Assembly (NCBI GenBank): GCA_007118495.1
Contig: SKRM01000032.1
Span: forward strand, 98,223 to 134,174
Length of the DNA: 35,952 nt
From: Bacteroidales bacterium
GTDB taxonomy: Bacteria > Bacteroidota > Bacteroidia > Bacteroidales > UBA7960
Direction of reading: 5' to 3'
Shown: piece by piece, positions 5,019 through 34,362 of the stretch
How the letters are laid out: the number at the start of each line of letters is the position of its first letter
Numbering within the stretch: position 1 is the first letter of the stretch
The notes under the pieces: generated by a model
Database searches by the model: none
What the model saw: only the letters and a program-made list of their open reading frames with translations
What the model was told of the DNA's origin: nothing
Position numbers and translations under genes: made by a program

Positions 5019-6029
5019 TTACTGAAGATCGTGCCGTGAAATCAGCTCCAGACCAGATGTGGAATAATAACTAAACCCCCCATTATCAGCATAAATGAAA
5101 TAGGCCTCCAGGTCATCTCTGGCCTCAACAAATGTTATTGATCGTTCCAGACCCATCACCATAAATGCGGTGGCATAGGCATCAGCATCCATCCCATTGC
5201 CGGCAAAAACAGAAACGCTCATCAGGCTGTGGCCCACCGGATATCCGGTCTGGGGATCAATGGTATGAGACAAACGTTGACCATCAGCTTCGTAATACTT
5301 TCTGTAATCGCCTGAGGTTGCAAGGCCGGTATTTTCTATTTCCACAAGATAATCCCACTGTTGGGGTGCATCATCCCGCTCAGCAGGTATTTCAAGGCCA
5401 ATACGCCATTTCCTTTTATCGGGACGATTCCCGCGCACAACAAGGTCGCCGCCAATTTCAACCATATAGGCTTCTATCCCCTTTGACTCCAGGAAATTAC
5501 CAACAACATCGGCCGCATAGCCTTTGGCAATGGCATTAAAATCGAGTTGGACCCTTTCATCTTCCTTAACCACCGCCCCATCCTCAAGCCGGATTTTTTC
5601 ATACCCGACAAACCCAAGCAGGCTATCTATCTTCTGTCTGGTCATATCAAGTCTTTCAGCGAAACCAAAGCCCCAGGCACTTACAAGCGGGAACACGGTA
5701 GGGTCAAAAGCACCATCGGTTTCATTTGATATCTCCATGGCCCGGTTGAAAACCACCCTGAAGTAATCGTCCACATGCACTTCTTCATTTCGGTTGATCC
5801 TTGAGAGTAGTGACTGGGGGTCATAAAACGACAATGAACTGTTAAAGTCATTGAAAAGGCTATCAATTGACTCCTCAAGTATCCTGCCTTCATCATCAAA
5901 ATAAATAATGGAGTAATATGTTCCGAAAACAACACCCCTGATGGTAATCATCTGCGCACCCCGGTCGCGGTCAGCGCAAGAGGCAAAAACAAGTAAAACA
6001 ACGACTATGCTAATAAGGAGTTTTCTCAT
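5019..6029 (-). CDS. apbE: FAD:protein FMN transferase, lipoprotein
   Basis: 336 residues from the ATG at 6029, giving a signal peptide with lipobox Phe-Ala-Ser-Cys, so an exported lipoprotein. A longer frame reaches 6149, but it would overlap the upstream cation transporter and bury the signal peptide; it is rejected. ApbE moves FMN from FAD to a threonine of target proteins. Family features seen: the segment with Asp-Phe-Asn-Ala-Ile-Ala-Lys-Gly-Tyr, Gly-Gly-Asp-Leu-Val-Val-Arg-Gly, the segment with Thr-Ser-Gly-Asp-Tyr-Arg and His-Thr-Ile-Asp-Pro, and the Mg-site region with Asp-Ala-Asp-Ala-Tyr-Ala-Thr-Ala. NqrB and NqrC, encoded just upstream on the same strand, are its classical substrates. 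It follows the CDF gene by 52 bases and is probably co-transcribed with it. Confidence 0.92.
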   Translation of the reverse strand: MRKLLISIVVVLLVFASCADRDRGAQMITIRGVVFGTYYSIIYFDDEGRILEESIDSLFNDFNSSLSFYDPQSLLSRINRNEEVHVDDYFRVVFNRAMEISNETDGAFDPTVFPLVSAWGFGFAERLDMTRQKIDSLLGFVGYEKIRLEDGAVVKEDERVQLDFNAIAKGYAADVVGNFLESKGIEAYMVEIGGDLVVRGNRPDKRKWRIGLEIPAERDDAPQQWDYLVEIENTGLATSGDYRKYYEADGQRLSHTIDPQTGYPVGHSLMSVSVFAGNGMDADAYATAFMVMGLERSITFVEARDDLEAYFIYADNGGFSYYSTSGLELISRHDLQ

Positions 6030-6081
6030 GGCTAATCTTATGTGTTTAATGGGGCACGCTGATGGTAACCCATGCATTGGG

Positions 6082-6969
6082 TTAAAGTGGCTCTGTATGG
6101 ACAGAAATATGGGTTCCCTCTCCAAATTTGTCTCTGAATTTTTCTTCAAGGCGTACCGTTATATCGTGCGCCTCCCTGATATTTAAGTCATGCTGCACCT
6201 GTATATGCATATCAATGGCAATACTGCTTCCGATTTTTCGTGTTTTAAGGGCATGGGGGTTATGCACCCCTTCAACTTCTCTCGCCAGTTGTAATATCTC
6301 TTTTTCTTTTTTTGAGGGCAGTGAAGTTTCTATGAGTTCCATAACCGCCTCATGGATAATTTTCATTGCTACCCTGAATATGAACACACTTACCACAATG
6401 GCGGCAAGAGGATCAAGGATCACCCAATTGGTTCCAAGAAAAATAGCACCCCCAATTCCAAATAAGGTGCCCAGTGAAGAGTACACATCACTGCGGTGAT
6501 GCCATGCATTGGCAATCAGCACAGGGCTATCAATCCGCTTACCATTGCGTATCGTATACCTGAACAGCCATTCTTTGATTATAATAGAGAATATGGCAGC
6601 ATAAAGCGCTACCATTCCCGGTTGTCTTAAAGGATCATCTCCATAGTGTCCGACAATTTTTTTGATACCTGAATACAGTATCCCGGCTCCGACAAGTAAC
6701 AACACACCTCCTACAAACCCTGCTGCCAGGGTTTCCACTTTGCCGTGTCCGTATTTGTGATTGCCGTCAATTGGCCTGGAGGCAACCCTGAAGCTTCCGG
6801 CAACGACCAGGTCTGTCAGGATATCACTGACAGAGTGGATGGCGTCGGCCACCATAGCAGCACTTCGTCCTAATATTCCAGCAATTAATTTTAAAAGGGT
6901 CAGGGCAAGGTTTGAGAAAAACCCTATCCAGATAACCCTGTTTGCTCTTCTGAAACGATCTTTTTTCAT
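6082..6969 (-). CDS. Cation diffusion facilitator family transporter
   Basis: 295 residues from ATG 6969; the frame extends five codons to a TTG, but that lies in the nqrF terminator. Six membrane helices are followed by a C-terminal cytoplasmic metal-binding domain. Helix 2 carries the metal-site pattern His45-x3-Asp49-x3-Asp53 within Ala-Asp-Ala-Ile-His-Ser; helix 5 carries His-His-Arg-Ser-Asp. A Gly-His-Gly-Lys-Val-Glu motif follows helix 2. CDF proteins exchange divalent cations (Zn, Fe, Mn or Co) for protons; the metal cannot be told here. A TAACTTTG element on the minus strand (7010-7017) overlaps the nqrF stop and could give this gene its own promoter. Confidence 0.9.
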   Translation of the reverse strand: MKKDRFRRANRVIWIGFFSNLALTLLKLIAGILGRSAAMVADAIHSVSDILTDLVVAGSFRVASRPIDGNHKYGHGKVETLAAGFVGGVLLLVGAGILYSGIKKIVGHYGDDPLRQPGMVALYAAIFSIIIKEWLFRYTIRNGKRIDSPVLIANAWHHRSDVYSSLGTLFGIGGAIFLGTNWVILDPLAAIVVSVFIFRVAMKIIHEAVMELIETSLPSKKEKEILQLAREVEGVHNPHALKTRKIGSSIAIDMHIQVQHDLNIREAHDITVRLEEKFRDKFGEGTHISVHTEPL

Positions 6970-22283: not shown

Positions 22284-22958
22284 ATGAAAAACACCCGGCG
22301 CGTATACCTTTATCCCAGGTTTGAAAGATTCTGGCACTGGACACAGGCCTTTCTCATTTTATTTTTAGCCCTTACAGGTTTTGAGATCCATGGCTCTTAT
22401 GGTATTTTCGGGTTTGAGAACGCCGTGCATCTGCATAATAATGCGGCTCTGATTCTCATCGTCCTGATCATATTTACCATCTTTTGGCATTTAACCACCG
22501 GTGAGTGGAGGCAATACATGCCCACCACCAAAAACCTGAAAGCCCAGCTTGAATATTACCTTACAGGAATATTCAGAAATGCCCCACATCCCACCAGGAA
22601 AACCTCACTGAGTAAGCTCAATCCCATGCAGCGGCTGGTATATCTGGGCTTGAAGATACTGTTCATTCCGATCATGGTGTTTTCCGGACTGGTGTATATG
22701 TTTTACCGCTATCCCATAAATGGTGAGATCAAGTCGCTCGGAATCAATGACCTGACACCCATTGCATATATCCACACCCTGGGGGCATATATCCTCCTTG
22801 CCTTTGTATTGGTGCATGTTTACCTGATAACCACAGGACATACATTAAGCTCAAACCTGATGGCCATGATCACAGGCTGGGAAGATCTTGAAGAGGAAGA
22901 GGCGGATATGCTTACAGGAGAGCAGCCAGAACAAAATAAAAAAGACAAAAAACCATGA
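22284..22958 (+). CDS. Cytochrome b, cytochrome b561/thiosulfate-reductase-type membrane subunit
   Basis: 224 residues from ATG 22284; ATG 22254 (10 codons longer, overlapping the octaheme stop) is an alternative. Four or five membrane helices with histidines placed for two b haems: Trp-His-Trp near the start, His-Leu-His before helix 2, Phe-Trp-His at its end, and Tyr-Ile-His...Val-His-Val-Tyr in the last helix. It fits the di-haem cytochrome b family that passes electrons between quinones and periplasmic enzymes. The C-terminal tail is acidic then lysine-rich. The stop overlaps the next start by four bases (ATGA, 22955-22958), so translation is coupled. Direction of electron flow is not determined. 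Confidence 0.85.
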   Translation: MKNTRRVYLYPRFERFWHWTQAFLILFLALTGFEIHGSYGIFGFENAVHLHNNAALILIVLIIFTIFWHLTTGEWRQYMPTTKNLKAQLEYYLTGIFRNAPHPTRKTSLSKLNPMQRLVYLGLKILFIPIMVFSGLVYMFYRYPINGEIKSLGINDLTPIAYIHTLGAYILLAFVLVHVYLITTGHTLSSNLMAMITGWEDLEEEEADMLTGEQPEQNKKDKKP

Positions 22959-24013
22959 CAAGACATTCTATCACCCGGGTTATCGGAACATTGCTGATTG
23001 TCATGTTGTCAGCCTGTGGCTCTGACAAAAATGCCACACTGCCAACTGAAGCAGAATCAGCCTTATTGCTATCTTATCTTGAAAACAATGGCGACATTTT
23101 AAACGGACCGGGTCTGCCATCACTGATCAATGCAGAAGATGTCCACAGGCTTTTACACGGAACCAATATCCATATTATTGACCTGAGAGAGACCGATGCA
23201 TTCAATGCTGGTCATATTCCACACAGTGTCAATGTTCTTCCGTCAGAGGTTTTGTACCATTTTGAAAATGTAATAGACCCCTCATCATTCGATTATATTG
23301 TTTTGGTTTGCCCCGATGCCATGCTTAGCGGATACGTCAATGCTGTCATGCTGTTTCTTGGCTATGACAATGTATATGCACTCCGTTATGGCCTAAGCAG
23401 CTGGGATATGGAGATTGCAAAAGACTACTGGCTTGCTGCCATGAGCAGCCACCTTGAAAACAAGCTTGTAACCACATTCAATCCAAAAAACAAACCCGGA
23501 CCCCTCCCCGCCCTAGCCACAGGTGAGACCAACGGGTACCGCATTCTGCGAAAGCGTGCCGAAGAGATTCTGAACATAGATCCCGCTCTCCTGGATATTG
23601 ATCTGGATAGTTTACTGCATTACCCGGACAATTTTTACCTGGTGAACTATTGGCCGGTTGGGTTGTACGAACAGGGACACCTGCCGGGAGCCATACAGTA
23701 TACGCCAAAATTATCACTGCGCAGTGACCAGGACATCAACACACTACCTGTAGACCAACCCATCGCCATATACTGCTTTACAGGGCATCACAGCAGCTAT
23801 GTCACAGCCTTTTTAAGACTACTTGGCTACGAGGCGGTCAACTTTTCTTATGGAGCCAATGCCTTTATTCACCATACCATGCTAACCACACAGGTTGAGA
23901 GCAGGACATTTACTGAAGACCACGTACACCATTATCCCCTGTCGGGCAGGGATGAAGTTGCTCTTCCTGAGCAAAGACAGGATGAGTCGCTGCCCATTGG
24001 CGGTGGATGCTAA
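22955..24013 (+). CDS. Double-rhodanese lipoprotein with C-terminal Gly-Gly-Cys tail
   Basis: 352 residues: signal peptide with lipobox Leu-Ser-Ala-Cys (Cys21), so periplasmic and lipid-anchored. Two rhodanese-like domains follow. Domain 1 (about 58-160) has Ile-Asp-Leu-Arg and Gly-His-Ile-Pro; its active-site loop has Cys119 (Val-Cys-Pro-Asp-Ala). Domain 2 (about 205-308) has Gly-His-Leu-Pro-Gly-Ala and Cys274 in Tyr-Cys-Phe-Thr-Gly-His-His-Ser, close to a standard rhodanese loop. The protein ends Pro-Ile-Gly-Gly-Gly-Cys (Cys352). Rhodaneses carry sulfane sulfur as a persulfide on cysteine. The tail is shared with the two other rhodanese proteins of the operon. A flexible His-rich and acidic linker (about 322-346) precedes the tail. 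Translationally coupled to the cytochrome b gene. Confidence 0.85.
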   Translation: MTRHSITRVIGTLLIVMLSACGSDKNATLPTEAESALLLSYLENNGDILNGPGLPSLINAEDVHRLLHGTNIHIIDLRETDAFNAGHIPHSVNVLPSEVLYHFENVIDPSSFDYIVLVCPDAMLSGYVNAVMLFLGYDNVYALRYGLSSWDMEIAKDYWLAAMSSHLENKLVTTFNPKNKPGPLPALATGETNGYRILRKRAEEILNIDPALLDIDLDSLLHYPDNFYLVNYWPVGLYEQGHLPGAIQYTPKLSLRSDQDINTLPVDQPIAIYCFTGHHSSYVTAFLRLLGYEAVNFSYGANAFIHHTMLTTQVESRTFTEDHVHHYPLSGRDEVALPEQRQDESLPIGGGC

Positions 24014-24026
24014 AATCAGATGCGTC

Positions 24027-24542
24027 ATGGATAAAACAACAACTACGTACATGAATCCATATCTGGCCGGCTTTTTGTTGGGCCTGGTATTGCTGGCGGC
24101 TTTTGTCATATCCGGCAGGGGTCTTGGAGCCAGCGGCGCTGCAAAAGACCTGCTGGTAACAACAGTCGGATCTGTGGCACCTGACTATGCAGAAAAATCA
24201 ACTTTTTATGCAGAGTATTTTACGCCTGGAAGCCCCATGAAAAGCTGGCTGGTATTTCTTCTTGCCGGTGTTATTGTGGGAAGTTTTTTCAGTGGTGCGA
24301 TCTCGGGCAGACTTGGCTTCAAGACTGAACACGGCCCAAAGATTACTCCGGGAACAAGACTTGTTTTTTCCCTTGCAGGCGGATTGCTCTTTGGCCTTGG
24401 AGCCCAATTCGGAAGAGGCTGTACAAGCGGTGCAGCACTAAGTGGAATGGCCGTGCTTTCAACAGGTGGCATACTTACCATGATGGTCATTTTTGGCACA
24501 GGCTATCTCGTTGCCTACTTTTTCAGAAAATTATGGATTTAA
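24027..24542 (+). CDS. YeeE/YedE sulfur transporter, first half
   Basis: 171 residues from ATG 24027 (longer in-frame starts run back into the preceding gene and are not used). Four or so membrane helices with the family motif Phe-Gly-Arg-Gly-Cys-Thr-Ser-Gly (Cys132). YeeE/YedE proteins import thiosulfate or other sulfur compounds; conserved cysteines line the pore of the thiosulfate transporter TsuA. In TsuA both halves are one chain; here the second half is the next gene, 16 bases on. The split looks natural because each half has its own start and no shared frame is broken. The fourth gene of the operon. Confidence 0.83.
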   Translation: MDKTTTTYMNPYLAGFLLGLVLLAAFVISGRGLGASGAAKDLLVTTVGSVAPDYAEKSTFYAEYFTPGSPMKSWLVFLLAGVIVGSFFSGAISGRLGFKTEHGPKITPGTRLVFSLAGGLLFGLGAQFGRGCTSGAALSGMAVLSTGGILTMMVIFGTGYLVAYFFRKLWI

Positions 24543-24558
24543 CTTAAACCCAAGTGCC

Positions 24559-25782
24559 ATGGCACCATTCATACCACAAGGACTGATCAACCCTGAGCTT
24601 AATCTTTTTTTCGCCCTGATACTGGGCATAGGGTTTGGCTATGTACTCGAACAAGCTGGTTTTTCATCCTCACGCAAACTGGCAGGCGTTTTTTATGGCT
24701 ATGATTTTGTTGTTTTAAGGGTTTTTTTTACAGCCGGTGTTACGGCCATGACAGGTCTGCTTTTCATGAGCTATCTGGGCTGGATTGACATGGGCCTTAT
24801 CTATATAAACCCAACCTATCTGTATTCAGCCCTTACAGGAGGGGTCATCATGGGGTTTGGATTTATCCTGGGAGGCTTTTGCCCCGGGACAAGTTTTGTG
24901 GGGGCCGTCATTGGCAAGATTGATGCCATGGTATTCATTGTGGGGATGTTTCTTGGTATTTTCATATTCGGACATTTTTACAATCAGTTTGAACCTCTTT
25001 ATACCGGTAGCTTTCTGGGCAACCCGTTTATTTACGAAACCCTTGGAATATCCAGGGCATGGTTTGCCTTTATGTTGGTTATGGTAGCACTGATTGCCTT
25101 TGCCTTTACCCAGATGATTGAAGACAGGGTCAACAAGACAGATGCCAGGGTAATTCAGCAGCGACCATCAACCATGTTGCCCTCTATGCTGCTCATTGCG
25201 CTCATGTTCATTTACCTTTTCCTGCCGGTGGAAAGACCCAGCAATCTGAGAGAAATGCCTCCTGATGAGCTCATTGAAAAAATTCACAACGGAAAGGCTT
25301 TTGTCTCAACCCACCGCGTTATACACCAGCTTAAAAACCACCACGACAAAATGGTGCTCATTGACACCAGAGACAGAGCAGCGTATGAAAGATTCACCCT
25401 CCCGGGTGCCATCCACATGCCTCCCGGTGACATTCTGGCCCGTAGGTGGAAAGCCTTTTTCAAAAGGGATGGACGTCCAAAAGTTTTTTTCAGTCATGGA
25501 TCTGATGAGGCCATGGTGGCATGGATGACTGCCGCCAGGGCAGGATATGATAATGTGTTTCTTATGGATGGCGGACTCAATGCCATGTTTGAAGAACTGT
25601 TCATCAGAGAACTGCCTGATACAACCGCCTACGATTTGCAAAAAAGGTCAACAGCCCGATTTCTTCGTGATGCAAGAACCTTTTTTCTCGAAGGAGGTGC
25701 AGCTGCCAGCACAAGAGAAAACAGACCTGTGCTTATTGCTCCGGAACAGTCAGAAGTTATTCCTGTAATTGGAGGTTGTTAA
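24559..25782 (+). CDS. YeeE/YedE second half fused to a rhodanese domain, with Gly-Gly-Cys tail
   Basis: 407 residues from ATG 24559. Residues 1-190 hold membrane helices of a YeeE/YedE half with Gly-Gly-Phe-Cys-Pro-Gly-Thr-Ser (Cys108). Another helix (about 206-222) leads to a rhodanese-like domain (about 232-350) with Ile-Asp-Thr-Arg-Asp, Leu-Pro-Gly-Ala-Ile-His and Gly-Gly-Leu. In its active-site loop (Val-Phe-Phe-Ser-His-Gly-Ser-Asp) the usual cysteine is Ser312. The only two cysteines in the protein are Cys108 and the last residue, Cys407, in the tail Pro-Val-Ile-Gly-Gly-Cys. A ~55-residue linker joins domain and tail. The arrangement suggests a transporter that hands sulfur to, or receives it from, its own tail cysteine; this is inference. 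Which side of the membrane the domain lies on is unknown. Confidence 0.85.
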   Translation: MAPFIPQGLINPELNLFFALILGIGFGYVLEQAGFSSSRKLAGVFYGYDFVVLRVFFTAGVTAMTGLLFMSYLGWIDMGLIYINPTYLYSALTGGVIMGFGFILGGFCPGTSFVGAVIGKIDAMVFIVGMFLGIFIFGHFYNQFEPLYTGSFLGNPFIYETLGISRAWFAFMLVMVALIAFAFTQMIEDRVNKTDARVIQQRPSTMLPSMLLIALMFIYLFLPVERPSNLREMPPDELIEKIHNGKAFVSTHRVIHQLKNHHDKMVLIDTRDRAAYERFTLPGAIHMPPGDILARRWKAFFKRDGRPKVFFSHGSDEAMVAWMTAARAGYDNVFLMDGGLNAMFEELFIRELPDTTAYDLQKRSTARFLRDARTFFLEGGAAASTRENRPVLIAPEQSEVIPVIGGC

Positions 25783-25798
25783 CAAAAAATATACAACG

Positions 25799-26401
25799 AT
25801 GAATAATCAGCAATTAAATGCGGGCGCACTTATCTTTTTTGGAGTATTCATACTTCCACTTGTTTTTAACTGGCTAACCTGTGAATGTTACAAAACAAGC
25901 AACAGGCAGGTGGTACAGAAAATCAGCGAAACCGGCTATATCAACTATGAGGAACTGCAAACATTGCTCAACAACAATGAAACAAAGGGGTTTTTAATAC
26001 TCGATGTCAGGCCACACCATATCTATAAAGAAGGGCATCTGCATGGAGCTGTCAATGTCCCGTTTACTGAACTGCGAGAAAAACAACACAGAAAAACCCT
26101 AAAAACCAGTAACCCTATTATCATTTATTCAGATGAGCAAAAGCTGTCAGTGGCAGCCCAGGTTATGCTTTTGGGTCAGGGCTATGATGGGGTTTTTGTT
26201 ATTCCGGGGGGTTATGAGTCTATCAGAGCCTTTGCAATTGATAATTTTGTCCCCGCCAGGGCTTTTTACAATGAAGACAAGGCCATGTTTGATTACCCCC
26301 GATTCATGAAGCTTGATCCGGTACAGGCAGAAAGAAAAGCCCCGGGCATATTTGCTATACCCGGGGCTGAAGATATAACCCCTGTTCCGGGGGGTTGTTA
26401 A
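25799..26401 (+). CDS. Membrane-anchored rhodanese-like protein with Gly-Gly-Cys tail
   Basis: 200 residues from ATG 25799; an upstream in-frame Met at 25769 overlaps the previous gene. One N-terminal helix (about 8-26) is followed at once by Cys28-Glu-Cys30, then a single rhodanese-like domain (about 46-148) with Leu-Asp-Val-Arg, Glu-Gly-His-Leu-His-Gly-Ala and Pro-Gly-Gly-Tyr. The active-site loop Ile-Tyr-Ser-Asp-Glu has Ser111 where rhodaneses have cysteine. The chain ends Pro-Val-Pro-Gly-Gly-Cys (Cys200). It is the last gene of the operon; its stop lies 6 bases from the convergent S9 peptidase stop. Confidence 0.83.
   Translation: MNNQQLNAGALIFFGVFILPLVFNWLTCECYKTSNRQVVQKISETGYINYEELQTLLNNNETKGFLILDVRPHHIYKEGHLHGAVNVPFTELREKQHRKTLKTSNPIIIYSDEQKLSVAAQVMLLGQGYDGVFVIPGGYESIRAFAIDNFVPARAFYNEDKAMFDYPRFMKLDPVQAERKAPGIFAIPGAEDITPVPGGC
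26339..26367. repeat. 8-base inverted repeat inside the end of the last rhodanese gene
   Basis: GCCCCGGG (26339-26346) and CCCGGGGC (26360-26367) are exact reverse complements with a 13-base spacer, 34 bases before the stop. The hairpin would be very stable. With only 6 bases between the convergent stops, it may serve to slow or end transcription from either side, but no T-run is present. Confidence 0.45.
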
Positions 26402-33036: not shown

Positions 33037-34362
33037 ATGACAGTTGATATTAGAGTACCTGAAGCAGGCGAATCAATTACACAGGTTGAACTGGCCAGAT
33101 GGCTGGTTGAAGATGGTCAATACGTTGAGAAAGACCAGGAAATAGCAGAAATAGATTCAGATAAGGCAACCCTCACCATCAGTGCAGAAGCTGCCGGTAA
33201 GATCAGCCTGTTGATGGAAGAAGGAACCACCACTGAACCTGGAAAAATCATTGGACGAATTGACTCGAAGGCTGAGGCTAAGGAGAAAACCAGCGAAAAG
33301 CCCGGGGATGAAGCAGAAGAGAAAGCTGAGGAGAAAGCTGAGGAGAAAGCTGAGGAAAAAGCTGAGGAAAAAGCTGAGGAAAAAGCTGAGGAAAAGACTG
33401 AGGAGACAGCTGAGGGAAAGGGAAGTAAACAAGAGTTTACATTCACACCCCAGGCCCAACGCTTATTGGATGATGAGGCAATTGAGCTTGACTGGGACAA
33501 CATCCGTCCTGATGGCAAGCGGATTACCAAGAAAGACATCCTTGCCGCCATTGCCAGTGCATCGAAAAAAACCTCAACACCTTCAGGAAAAACTCCACCT
33601 GTAGATATTCAGCCATCAGCGTGGGGGGGAAACCGGGATGTATCGCGCCAGAAAATGTCAACCCTCAGAAAAAAAATTGCAGAACGTCTGGTAGCAGTTA
33701 AAAATCAGACCGCCATGCTTACCACCTTCAATGAGGTGGACATGACAGCCGTGATGGAACTTCGCAAGAAACACCAGAAGGCATTTACCGAGAAATATGG
33801 CTTCAAACTGGGCTTCATGTCATTTTTTGTAAAAGCGGTGGCAGAAAGTATTCCATTTTACCCCCAGGTTAATGGCTTTATTGATGGCAATCAAATTGTT
33901 ATTCCCAACTATGCCGATGTGGGTATTGCCGTGAGCACACCAAAAGGGTTGATGGTACCTGTAATTCGCAACGCCGAGAAATTATCGGTTCCTGAATTGG
34001 AAGCGACCATCAGTGAACTCGCCAACAAGGCCAGAGATAATAAGATCACCATTGACGAACTTACAGGAGGCACCATTTCTATTACCAATGGAGGCGTATT
34101 TGGTTCTATGCTGTCAACACCTATCATCAATCCGCCACAAAGCGCCATACTGGGGATGCATAATATCGTGGAAAGACCGGTTGCCATTAACGGCAAAGTG
34201 GAGATTCGCCCCATCATGTACCTGGCACTCTCATACGACCACAGGGTTATTGATGGAAAGGAGTCGGTCAGTTTTCTTGTAAAAGTCAAGGAGTTCATTG
34301 AAAACCCCTCGAACTTGCTGCTTCATGGAAGAGAAGCCGGAGAAGTGATTTTGGGGTTATAG
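33037..34362 (+). CDS. sucB: 2-oxoglutarate dehydrogenase E2, dihydrolipoyl succinyltransferase
   Basis: 441 residues. A lipoyl domain (about 2-77) carries the lipoyl lysine Lys43 in Asp-Ser-Asp-Lys-Ala. A linker with a tandem Ala-Glu-Glu-Lys repeat (93-128) follows, then an E1/E3-binding peripheral domain (about 132-172, ending [10 protein letters not shown]) and the acyltransferase core with active-site His402 and Asp406 in Asp-His-Arg-Val-Ile-Asp-Gly. It moves the succinyl group from lipoamide to CoA. The E3 gene is not in the window. Confidence 0.95.
33313..33420 (+). repeat. 12-base tandem repeat coding an Ala-Glu-Glu-Lys array in sucB
   Basis: Nine in-frame units of 12 bases, consensus GCTGAGGAGAAA or GCTGAGGAAAAA, with the outer units diverged and the five central ones nearly identical. 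It codes a charged helical linker between the lipoyl and E3-binding domains. Near-identity of the central units points to recent slippage or unequal crossover, so length may differ between strains. Confidence 0.9.

Follow-up and report, generated by a model that had tools for sequence, protein, structure and literature searches.

SoxY carries sulfur intermediates between periplasmic enzymes on the cysteine of a swinging C-terminal GGCGG arm, as stated in two reports (PMC6067878, PMC5336275). Transfer of sulfur from SoxYZ to the YeeE-like protein SoxT along channel cysteines has been proposed, and PmpB and PmpA match the two halves of YeeE, with one cysteine each at the positions needed in the TsuA transporter (PMC11582611). 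Sud of Wolinella succinogenes is a periplasmic sulfurtransferase that was reported to carry a polysulfide chain (PMC3397948). The present analysis concerns an operon in a 35,952-nucleotide stretch of the genome of a Bacteroidales bacterium (assembly GCA_007118495.1, contig SKRM01000032.1, positions 98,223 to 134,174; the whole stretch is called the window). The operon encodes a split YeeE transporter and an octaheme cytochrome together with three rhodanese-domain proteins: a double-rhodanese lipoprotein, a fusion of the second YeeE half to a rhodanese, and an N-terminally anchored rhodanese. All three end in Gly-Gly-Cys. By analogy with SoxY, this conserved terminal cysteine on a floppy tail is probably a shared arm for the passage of sulfur between the channel in the membrane and the respiratory enzyme. 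The tailed-rhodanese sulfur system is present in at least two classes of the phylum.

The C-termini of the lipoprotein, the fusion and the anchored rhodanese read ...ESLPIGGGC, ...SEVIPVIGGC and ...EDITPVPGGC, each followed by TAA. The endings PIGGGC, PVIGGC and PVPGGC at TAA, on which a preliminary description of the window was built, are confirmed from the DNA and the translations, and Pfam finds a rhodanese domain in all three proteins. The same description held that the adjoining rhodanese-free membrane proteins have no tail, and this is correct: the cytochrome b ends in ...KDKKP and the first YeeE half in ...FFRKLWI. The DNA pattern for GGC plus a stop occurs at 41 sites in the 2.63-Mb genome. 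Among the 38 sites that were read, the three window rhodaneses are the only ends of open reading frames (ORFs) of at least 40 amino acids; the other three sites have TGG in place of a stop. The tail is missing from both other rhodanese proteins found in this genome (299 and 129 amino acids). The earlier judgement that chance is unlikely is borne out by this genome scan and by the wide conservation of the tail among homologues.

Homologues were collected from evenly drawn genomes, with several loci coming from one genus. The TIGR04315 cut-off for octaheme cytochromes was exceeded in 55 of 395 genomes of the phylum (60 matches, 35 opened), and a half-YeeE search gave matches in 6 of 395 genomes of the class. 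In the class of genome G302, a profile of the fusion matched 105 of 245 genomes, and 70 places were opened, namely the 30 best full-length fusions and 40 further regions chosen among matches that fell short of a full-length fusion. Gene labels were taken from our own profiles and single reference proteins, the label cyt8h standing for eight CxxCH motifs. Single-rhodanese proteins fused to the second YeeE half (yeeC), or encoded within 1.5 kb of it, formed 105 clusters at 90% identity over the last 150 residues. Cysteine is the last residue in 92 of these clusters and the penultimate one in 9, or 101 of 105 together; in the remaining four it is not within the last four residues. One of the four (L122) is a different rhodanese of 294 amino acids that keeps the catalytic cysteine, one (L118) really lacks the tail, and two (L210 and L221) have broken frames, in which KKKKKEGC or KKKKREGC is still encoded just downstream of the called ORF. 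The downstream stretch of L221 lies in another frame. The L210 gene (positions 5974-6579 of its locus, minus strand) has an in-frame TGA right before an otherwise intact KKKKKEGC, for which mutation, assembly error and readthrough are indistinguishable.

Eight loci from records titled Bacteroidia, Bacteroidetes, Bacteroidales, Chlorobiota and Ignavibacteria (L001-L008) have between one and three rhodaneses joined to the split YeeE or encoded after it, 19 in total. All 16 rhodaneses of L001-L007 end in GGC; in L008 two end in GGCD and the lipoprotein in EVCD, so that 18 of 19 have GGC or GGCD. A scan of 3,958 ORFs of at least 60 amino acids in the survey loci found seven that end in [G/E]GC, with at most one further residue, and were not labelled as rhodanese. 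These seven proved to be the rhodaneses of the set again, seen without a label in loci that overlap (L081-L086). No GC or GCx ending was present among 36 control rhodanese ORFs (30 loci, 61 genomes of the phylum), a set made from the best-scoring matches of these genomes and hence rich in ordinary rhodaneses. Among plasmids, the search for distant homologues yielded two matches, both limited to the transporter half (one was opened). The preliminary description would have been contradicted by homologues with absent or varied tails; the tail survived this comparison and is conserved in homologues of at least two classes. Its pattern P[IV]xGGC holds in part. The GGC portion, or EGC, is kept widely, whereas P[IV]x belongs mainly to the window's genus. 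Farther afield the tail reads GGC, or KKKKEGC in another class, where the neighbours are Phs-like molybdo-enzymes. Chance or local coincidence is ruled out by the genome scan, the 105 clusters and the controls, and the controls also rule out the tail as a general feature of rhodaneses.

In the lineage of the window, 36 of the 59 relatives searched by profile gave a match. Counting distinct proteins, the window's three included, the tail is kept by 18 of 20 fusions, 17 of 18 double-rhodanese proteins and 28 of 29 single proteins, one of the latter 28 being a lipoprotein cut by a contig edge. The tail is absent from the anchored protein alone in L236. In L248 (genome G892) and the near-identical L249, a second cluster of genome G888, it is lost from the fusion and the lipoprotein and kept, as PTPVIGGC, on the anchored protein; these are one evolutionary case of tail loss and not two. 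No octaheme gene lies within either locus. G892, which is 96% complete, has no TIGR04315 match, and G888 has one on another contig, together with a match to a second, fully tailed fusion. This version of the operon, found in the window's genus and with two of three tails cleanly gone, is a natural test of tail dependence.

The tailed single rhodaneses have mostly lost the cysteine of the catalytic loop, a point that the preliminary description overlooked for two of the three window proteins. The catalytic position is defined here as the alignment column of the second-domain loop cysteine of the window lipoprotein, in a profile made from these proteins and not by structural superposition. By this definition the cysteine is replaced in 101 of the 105 clusters, mostly by Ser, Ala or Gly. 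The window fusion (FFSHGS) and the anchored rhodanese (IYSDEQ) have Ser; the loop cysteine of an active sulfurtransferase is present in the lipoprotein and missing from these two. The polysulfide-carrying loop cysteine of Sud is likewise missing from both. When 22 fusions are aligned, just three positions of the rhodanese half show no variation at all: G329, G405 and the terminal C407. The first 51 loci encode 52 single rhodaneses, and in 33 of them the part matched as rhodanese has no cysteine except within the last six residues. The anchored rhodaneses of L005-L007 (for example L007, 7260-7901) have a CGAC pair shortly after the usual cysteine position of their Cys-less loop (YYSDQCGAC), possibly a second redox site.

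Counted by locus, tails are almost confined to places where the YeeE pair adjoins either an octaheme cytochrome or a Phs-like enzyme. A tailed protein is encoded in 24 of 25 loci with YeeE and the octaheme cytochrome, the exception (L151) ending in GGLCS, and in 46 of 48 loci with YeeE and a molybdo-enzyme or its NrfD-like subunit, the other two being the broken frames with the tail encoded downstream. L207 was placed in the molybdo-enzyme group because the only TIGR04315 match of its genome is on another contig; its own gene with eight CxxCH motifs gave no match. The single locus with YeeE and both redox enzymes (L008, octaheme 525 bits) also has a tailed protein. Neither enzyme is in view in four YeeE loci, and two of these (L227, L228) have no terminal cysteine. 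Among the named records, L001 has the octaheme cytochrome (552 bits), whereas L002-L007 have a molybdo-enzyme in its place, accompanied by NrfC-like and NrfD-like subunits; the L004 sequence starts within the NrfD-like gene. Around octaheme genes without YeeE, our rhodanese profile found nothing in 12 loci of 6.5 to 14 kb. Co-occurrence of the tail with octaheme and YeeE neighbours had been suggested as a check. The coupling to YeeE plus octaheme is indeed seen, but the octaheme cytochrome is not the sole partner, as Phs-like molybdo-enzymes are tied to the tail too; an exclusive link to the octaheme cytochrome is ruled out by the 46 loci with a molybdo-enzyme instead. In the class of G302, all 30 fusions read end in GGC, 22 of them in K[RK][VI]xGGC, and a rhodanese ending in [E/D]GC, typically KKKKEGC, is found in 34 of 38 molybdo-type loci. 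Both tail types occur in each of two genomes read in both operons, G062 (L147, L207) and G014 (L150, L225). In this comparison tail type and redox partner are both confounded with whether the protein is a fusion or stands alone.

A separate observation concerns twelve loci (L123-L129, L133, L152, L154, L156, L157) in which TIGR04315 cytochromes occur without a nearby split YeeE or rhodanese; 7 of the 12 are also without a cytochrome b match. The YeeE-free octaheme cytochromes perhaps have a different role inside one family.

The tails of unlike proteins agree within an operon, which had also escaped the preliminary description. The comparison covered 18 loci, one per genus where the genus is known. 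L004 and L006 were left out because they nearly duplicate L003 and L005, and related genera in the set do not count as independent. Over the five residues before xGC, identity is 54% between different proteins of one operon (38 pairs) and 13% between loci (997 pairs), and none of 100,000 permutations reached the observed score. The domain alignment score behaves in the opposite way, being lower inside loci (58) than between them (99). In the most extreme cases the three proteins of L256 all end in GGGGGGC and the three of L258 in KKKKQAAAGGCE. Tails of the same operon use different codons in L002, L003, L005, L008 and L077. To judge from these sequences, the unlike proteins of one operon share a tail as if they docked at one site.

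The AlphaFold model of the rhodanese part of the fusion has a core block with a predicted local distance difference test (pLDDT) score of 79-91, and it resembles rhodanese-like PDB chains (such as 6mxv, 2kl3 and YgaP). The tails of the fusion and the anchored protein are predicted to be disordered, with pLDDT of about 27-36; for the anchored protein, whose model is weak overall (59.6), the tail has about 30. The flexible linker assumed in the preliminary description is in keeping with these disordered tails, which would fit a swinging arm. Docking of the tail in the protein's own pocket was looked for in the same models, with the same low scores for the tail and for the anchored model. Of 58 stand-alone tailed rhodaneses, 57 contain a hydrophobic segment of 17 residues (mean hydropathy above 1.6). 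Lys and Arg are more frequent before the segment than after it in 40 of the 58, favouring the periplasmic side, and equally frequent in 7. A twin-Arg-like motif, searched with a loose pattern, is present within the first 60 residues of all 43 molybdo-enzymes, and c-type hemes are attached outside the cytoplasm. The arm is therefore likely to be extracytoplasmic, given the positive-inside majority, the twin-Arg-like motifs and the location of c-type hemes.

The genes of the window operon are listed in Table 1. They all lie on one strand, with the octaheme cytochrome first and the anchored rhodanese last.

Table 1. Genes of the window operon, with positions counted from the first nucleotide of the window.
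Feature	Position	Strand	Basis
Octaheme c-type cytochrome, tetrathionate reductase family, 519 aa	20710..22269	+	TIGR04315 (NCBIfam); 8 CxxCH
Membrane cytochrome b (b561 / thiosulfate reductase cytochrome b like), no Cys tail	22284..22958	+	PF01292, 94.2 bits
Double-rhodanese lipoprotein, 352 aa, tail PIGGGC at 23993-24010	22955..24013	+	PF00581, two stretches
First YeeE half (yeeN), membrane protein, 171 aa, conserved GRGC, no tail	24027..24542	+	PF04143, 67.2 bits; alignment
Second YeeE half (yeeC, conserved GGFCPGT) fused to rhodanese, tail PVIGGC at 25762-25779	24559..25782	+	PF04143, 50.8 bits; PF00581, 47.8 bits
N-terminally anchored rhodanese, 200 aa, tail PVPGGC at 26381-26398	25799..26401	+	PF00581, 53.5 bits

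The octaheme cytochrome scores 548.9 bits against TIGR04315 (cut-off 375) and belongs to this family, and the cytochrome b reaches 101.5 bits against the PRK15006 model, under its cut-off of 204. All three tailed proteins exceed the PF00581 gathering threshold of 22.2 bits (89.9 bits for the lipoprotein, 47.8 for the fusion, 53.5 for the anchored protein). The lipoprotein has a lipobox-like sequence, LSAC21, the fusion has an alternative start at 24493, and the anchored rhodanese has two extra cysteines, C28 and C30, directly after its hydrophobic segment. As in split YeeE/PmpAB, there are two PF04143 halves, each with its own cysteine motif, and both motifs are conserved throughout the aligned homologue sets. 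Elsewhere in the window (33037-34362), a protein with a repeated linker is encoded, presumably one resembling dihydrolipoyl succinyltransferase.

The window lipoprotein keeps both loop cysteines (CPDAML and CFTGHHS), and at least one is kept in all 12 double rhodaneses of the first 51 loci. Those of the 12 that end in GGC come from the window, L005, L006 and L007, and those with a Cys-less end include proteins in or beside YeeE operons (L077, L119, L120). A profile of the lipoprotein gave 42 matches outside the window, and none of the 29 homologues read from this search ends in GGC. One of the 29 (L048/L078) ends in APGCE at a contig end, and another (L060) adjoins a YeeE operon yet is tail-less. 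A double-rhodanese lipoprotein seen in L049-L076 is widespread in the phylum and often adjoins a protein of about 450 amino acids that ends in a VDGKLP-x-W stretch.

The terminal cysteine, the loss of the loop cysteine, the coupling to YeeE and redox enzymes and the agreement of tails within operons are established at the level of sequence. In the model proposed here, the membrane holds a module of rhodanese fold next to the split, PmpAB-like YeeE channel. In the fusion and the anchored protein, which have lost the active-site cysteine, the working thiol would be the C-terminal cysteine, carried by a disordered linker about 30 residues long. This arm would load sulfane sulfur as a persulfide or thiosulfonate and offer it to the operon's own redox enzyme, the octaheme cytochrome here and a Phs-like molybdo-enzyme elsewhere, and/or to the YeeE channel. 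The lipoprotein, with its intact rhodanese loops, may help to load or unload the arm. The persulfide chemistry, the docking sites and the direction of transfer are what we infer from these features. It appears reasonably probable, by the likeness to SoxY, that the tails are periplasmic thiol arms on a rhodanese scaffold which would carry sulfur to the partners in the operon. The swinging sulfur arm of the preliminary description is supported as far as a conserved, disordered tail coupled to YeeE and redox enzymes is concerned, and has to be widened beyond the octaheme cytochrome. A more far-reaching version, possible although we lean against it, is that the rhodanese fold, once an enzyme, has become the membrane-held base of a swinging arm with a terminal cysteine, its nucleophile relocated from the loop to the last residue, and that the several arms of an operon have evolved one tip that enters one catalytic site and feeds the split YeeE, so that sulfur respiration and uptake would be covalently channelled.

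Several observations weigh against the proposed arm. Three tailed proteins (L209, L222, L223) keep Cys at the catalytic position, and the double rhodaneses keep their loop cysteines. The tail is not universal in or near the operons of other genera: of the 12 double rhodaneses of the first 51 loci, 4 end in GGC, 2 have another cysteine near the end and 6 have none. Single members can dispense with it, as the fusion and lipoprotein of L248/L249 and the anchored rhodaneses of L236 and L118 have done. Since G892 keeps one tail without an octaheme match, the octaheme cytochrome is not its sole user, and the YeeE loci L122 (RKGC) and L192 (REVC), on short contigs, have a terminal cysteine with no redox enzyme in view. 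The positive-inside count opposes a periplasmic rhodanese in 11 of the 58 stand-alone proteins and is neutral in 7. The window tails agree little before GGC (17-22% over 18 residues), mainly sharing Pro-x-x-GGC. Gene conversion could partly explain the matching tails, as two of them in L007 have the same DNA sequence for about 20 codons.

The matching tails could have been shared merely through gene duplication or conversion, with no selected function. The identical DNA of the two L007 tails speaks for this, but the domains of one operon have diverged while the tails agree, codons differ in the five loci named above, and the terminal cysteine is near-invariant across 105 clusters; this explanation is extremely improbable. 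The presence of the same tail on several unlike proteins of one genome would also suit a sorting or processing signal for one enzyme, such as C-terminal anchoring or lipidation. Yet the window carriers already possess a membrane part or a lipobox, no GGC ending beyond these three ORFs was found in the window genome, the C-terminus is a predicted disordered coil and its upstream residues vary by genus, which makes such a signal very unlikely.

Another possibility is an assembly tether, in which a disulfide or other covalent bond of the tail cysteine joins rhodanese, YeeE and redox enzyme and no sulfur is carried. This role would suit a long linker with a cysteine at its tip, present on as many as three proteins of an operon, and the shared upstream residues that suggest one docking site; the coupling to two membrane complexes would suit it as well. 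A tether leaves unexplained why a sulfur-handling fold stands beside a transporter half with a kept cysteine motif, and why the loop cysteine is lost; it is unlikely, if worth keeping in mind. The tail cysteine could instead be a ligand or latch: reaching into the catalytic centre of either the octaheme cytochrome or the molybdo-enzyme, it would coordinate heme iron or Mo and regulate the enzyme according to the sulfur present. In one class the tail type follows the redox partner (GGC on 30 of 30 fusions against [E/D]GC in 34 of 38 molybdo-type loci), and 24 of 25 fusions with an octaheme gene in view end in GGC or GGCx. The confounding of tail type with protein type weakens this argument, and a latch would have no need of up to three different carriers, so we regard it as distinctly unlikely. 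The proposed sulfur-carrying arm makes sulfur delivery directly testable by a one-codon change of the terminal cysteine. If it is true, it would be a clean case of an enzyme fold that lost its active site while the nucleophile reappeared on a tail. The GC-at-stop tail beside a split YeeE is in addition an easy annotation marker for this sulfur system.

No published description of such a rhodanese tail was found among the matches listed, judged by titles and abstract openings in a search that mostly did not reach subscription papers. One of the closest likenesses is to SoxY, which has Gly-Gly-Cys at its C-terminal arm (PMC6067878, PMC5336275), as in the window-type tails. Unlike SoxY, the tailed proteins have a rhodanese fold, are membrane-anchored or channel-fused, have octaheme or molybdo-enzyme partners and provide up to three arms per operon. 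Their cysteine is the very last or second-last residue; the ends across homologues are GGC, GGCx or EGC, so they do not have the GGCGG of SoxY. By Pfam the window tailed proteins contain rhodanese and Sulf_transp domains only and no SoxY domain. The two half-transporters with one conserved cysteine each resemble YeeE/TsuA and the split PmpA/PmpB (PMC11582611), but here a tailed rhodanese is either joined to one half or encoded after it. The first YeeE half remains far below the TsuA equivalog cut-offs (31.5 against 400 for NF052577, 19.9 against 645 for NF041049). The redox enzyme of the window operon falls in the octaheme tetrathionate reductase family, which also occurs without YeeE or rhodanese nearby (12 loci). 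The molybdo-enzyme of the other operon version resembles PhsA/PsrA and has NrfC-like and NrfD-like subunits, but the three tested stay below the PhsA equivalog cut-off of 694 (NF012032; L007 491.3, L207 508.2, L208 525.4 bits). There is also a weak profile match (E 9e-4) to 1qxn, titled sulfide dehydrogenase, which we take to be Sud of W. succinogenes. Sud is rhodanese-like and feeds polysulfide reductase; the single-domain tailed proteins differ from it in having no loop cysteine and an added tail cysteine. The tailed proteins thus have the rhodanese fold without its active-site cysteine, and although they do not belong to the SoxY family, they would work like SoxY.

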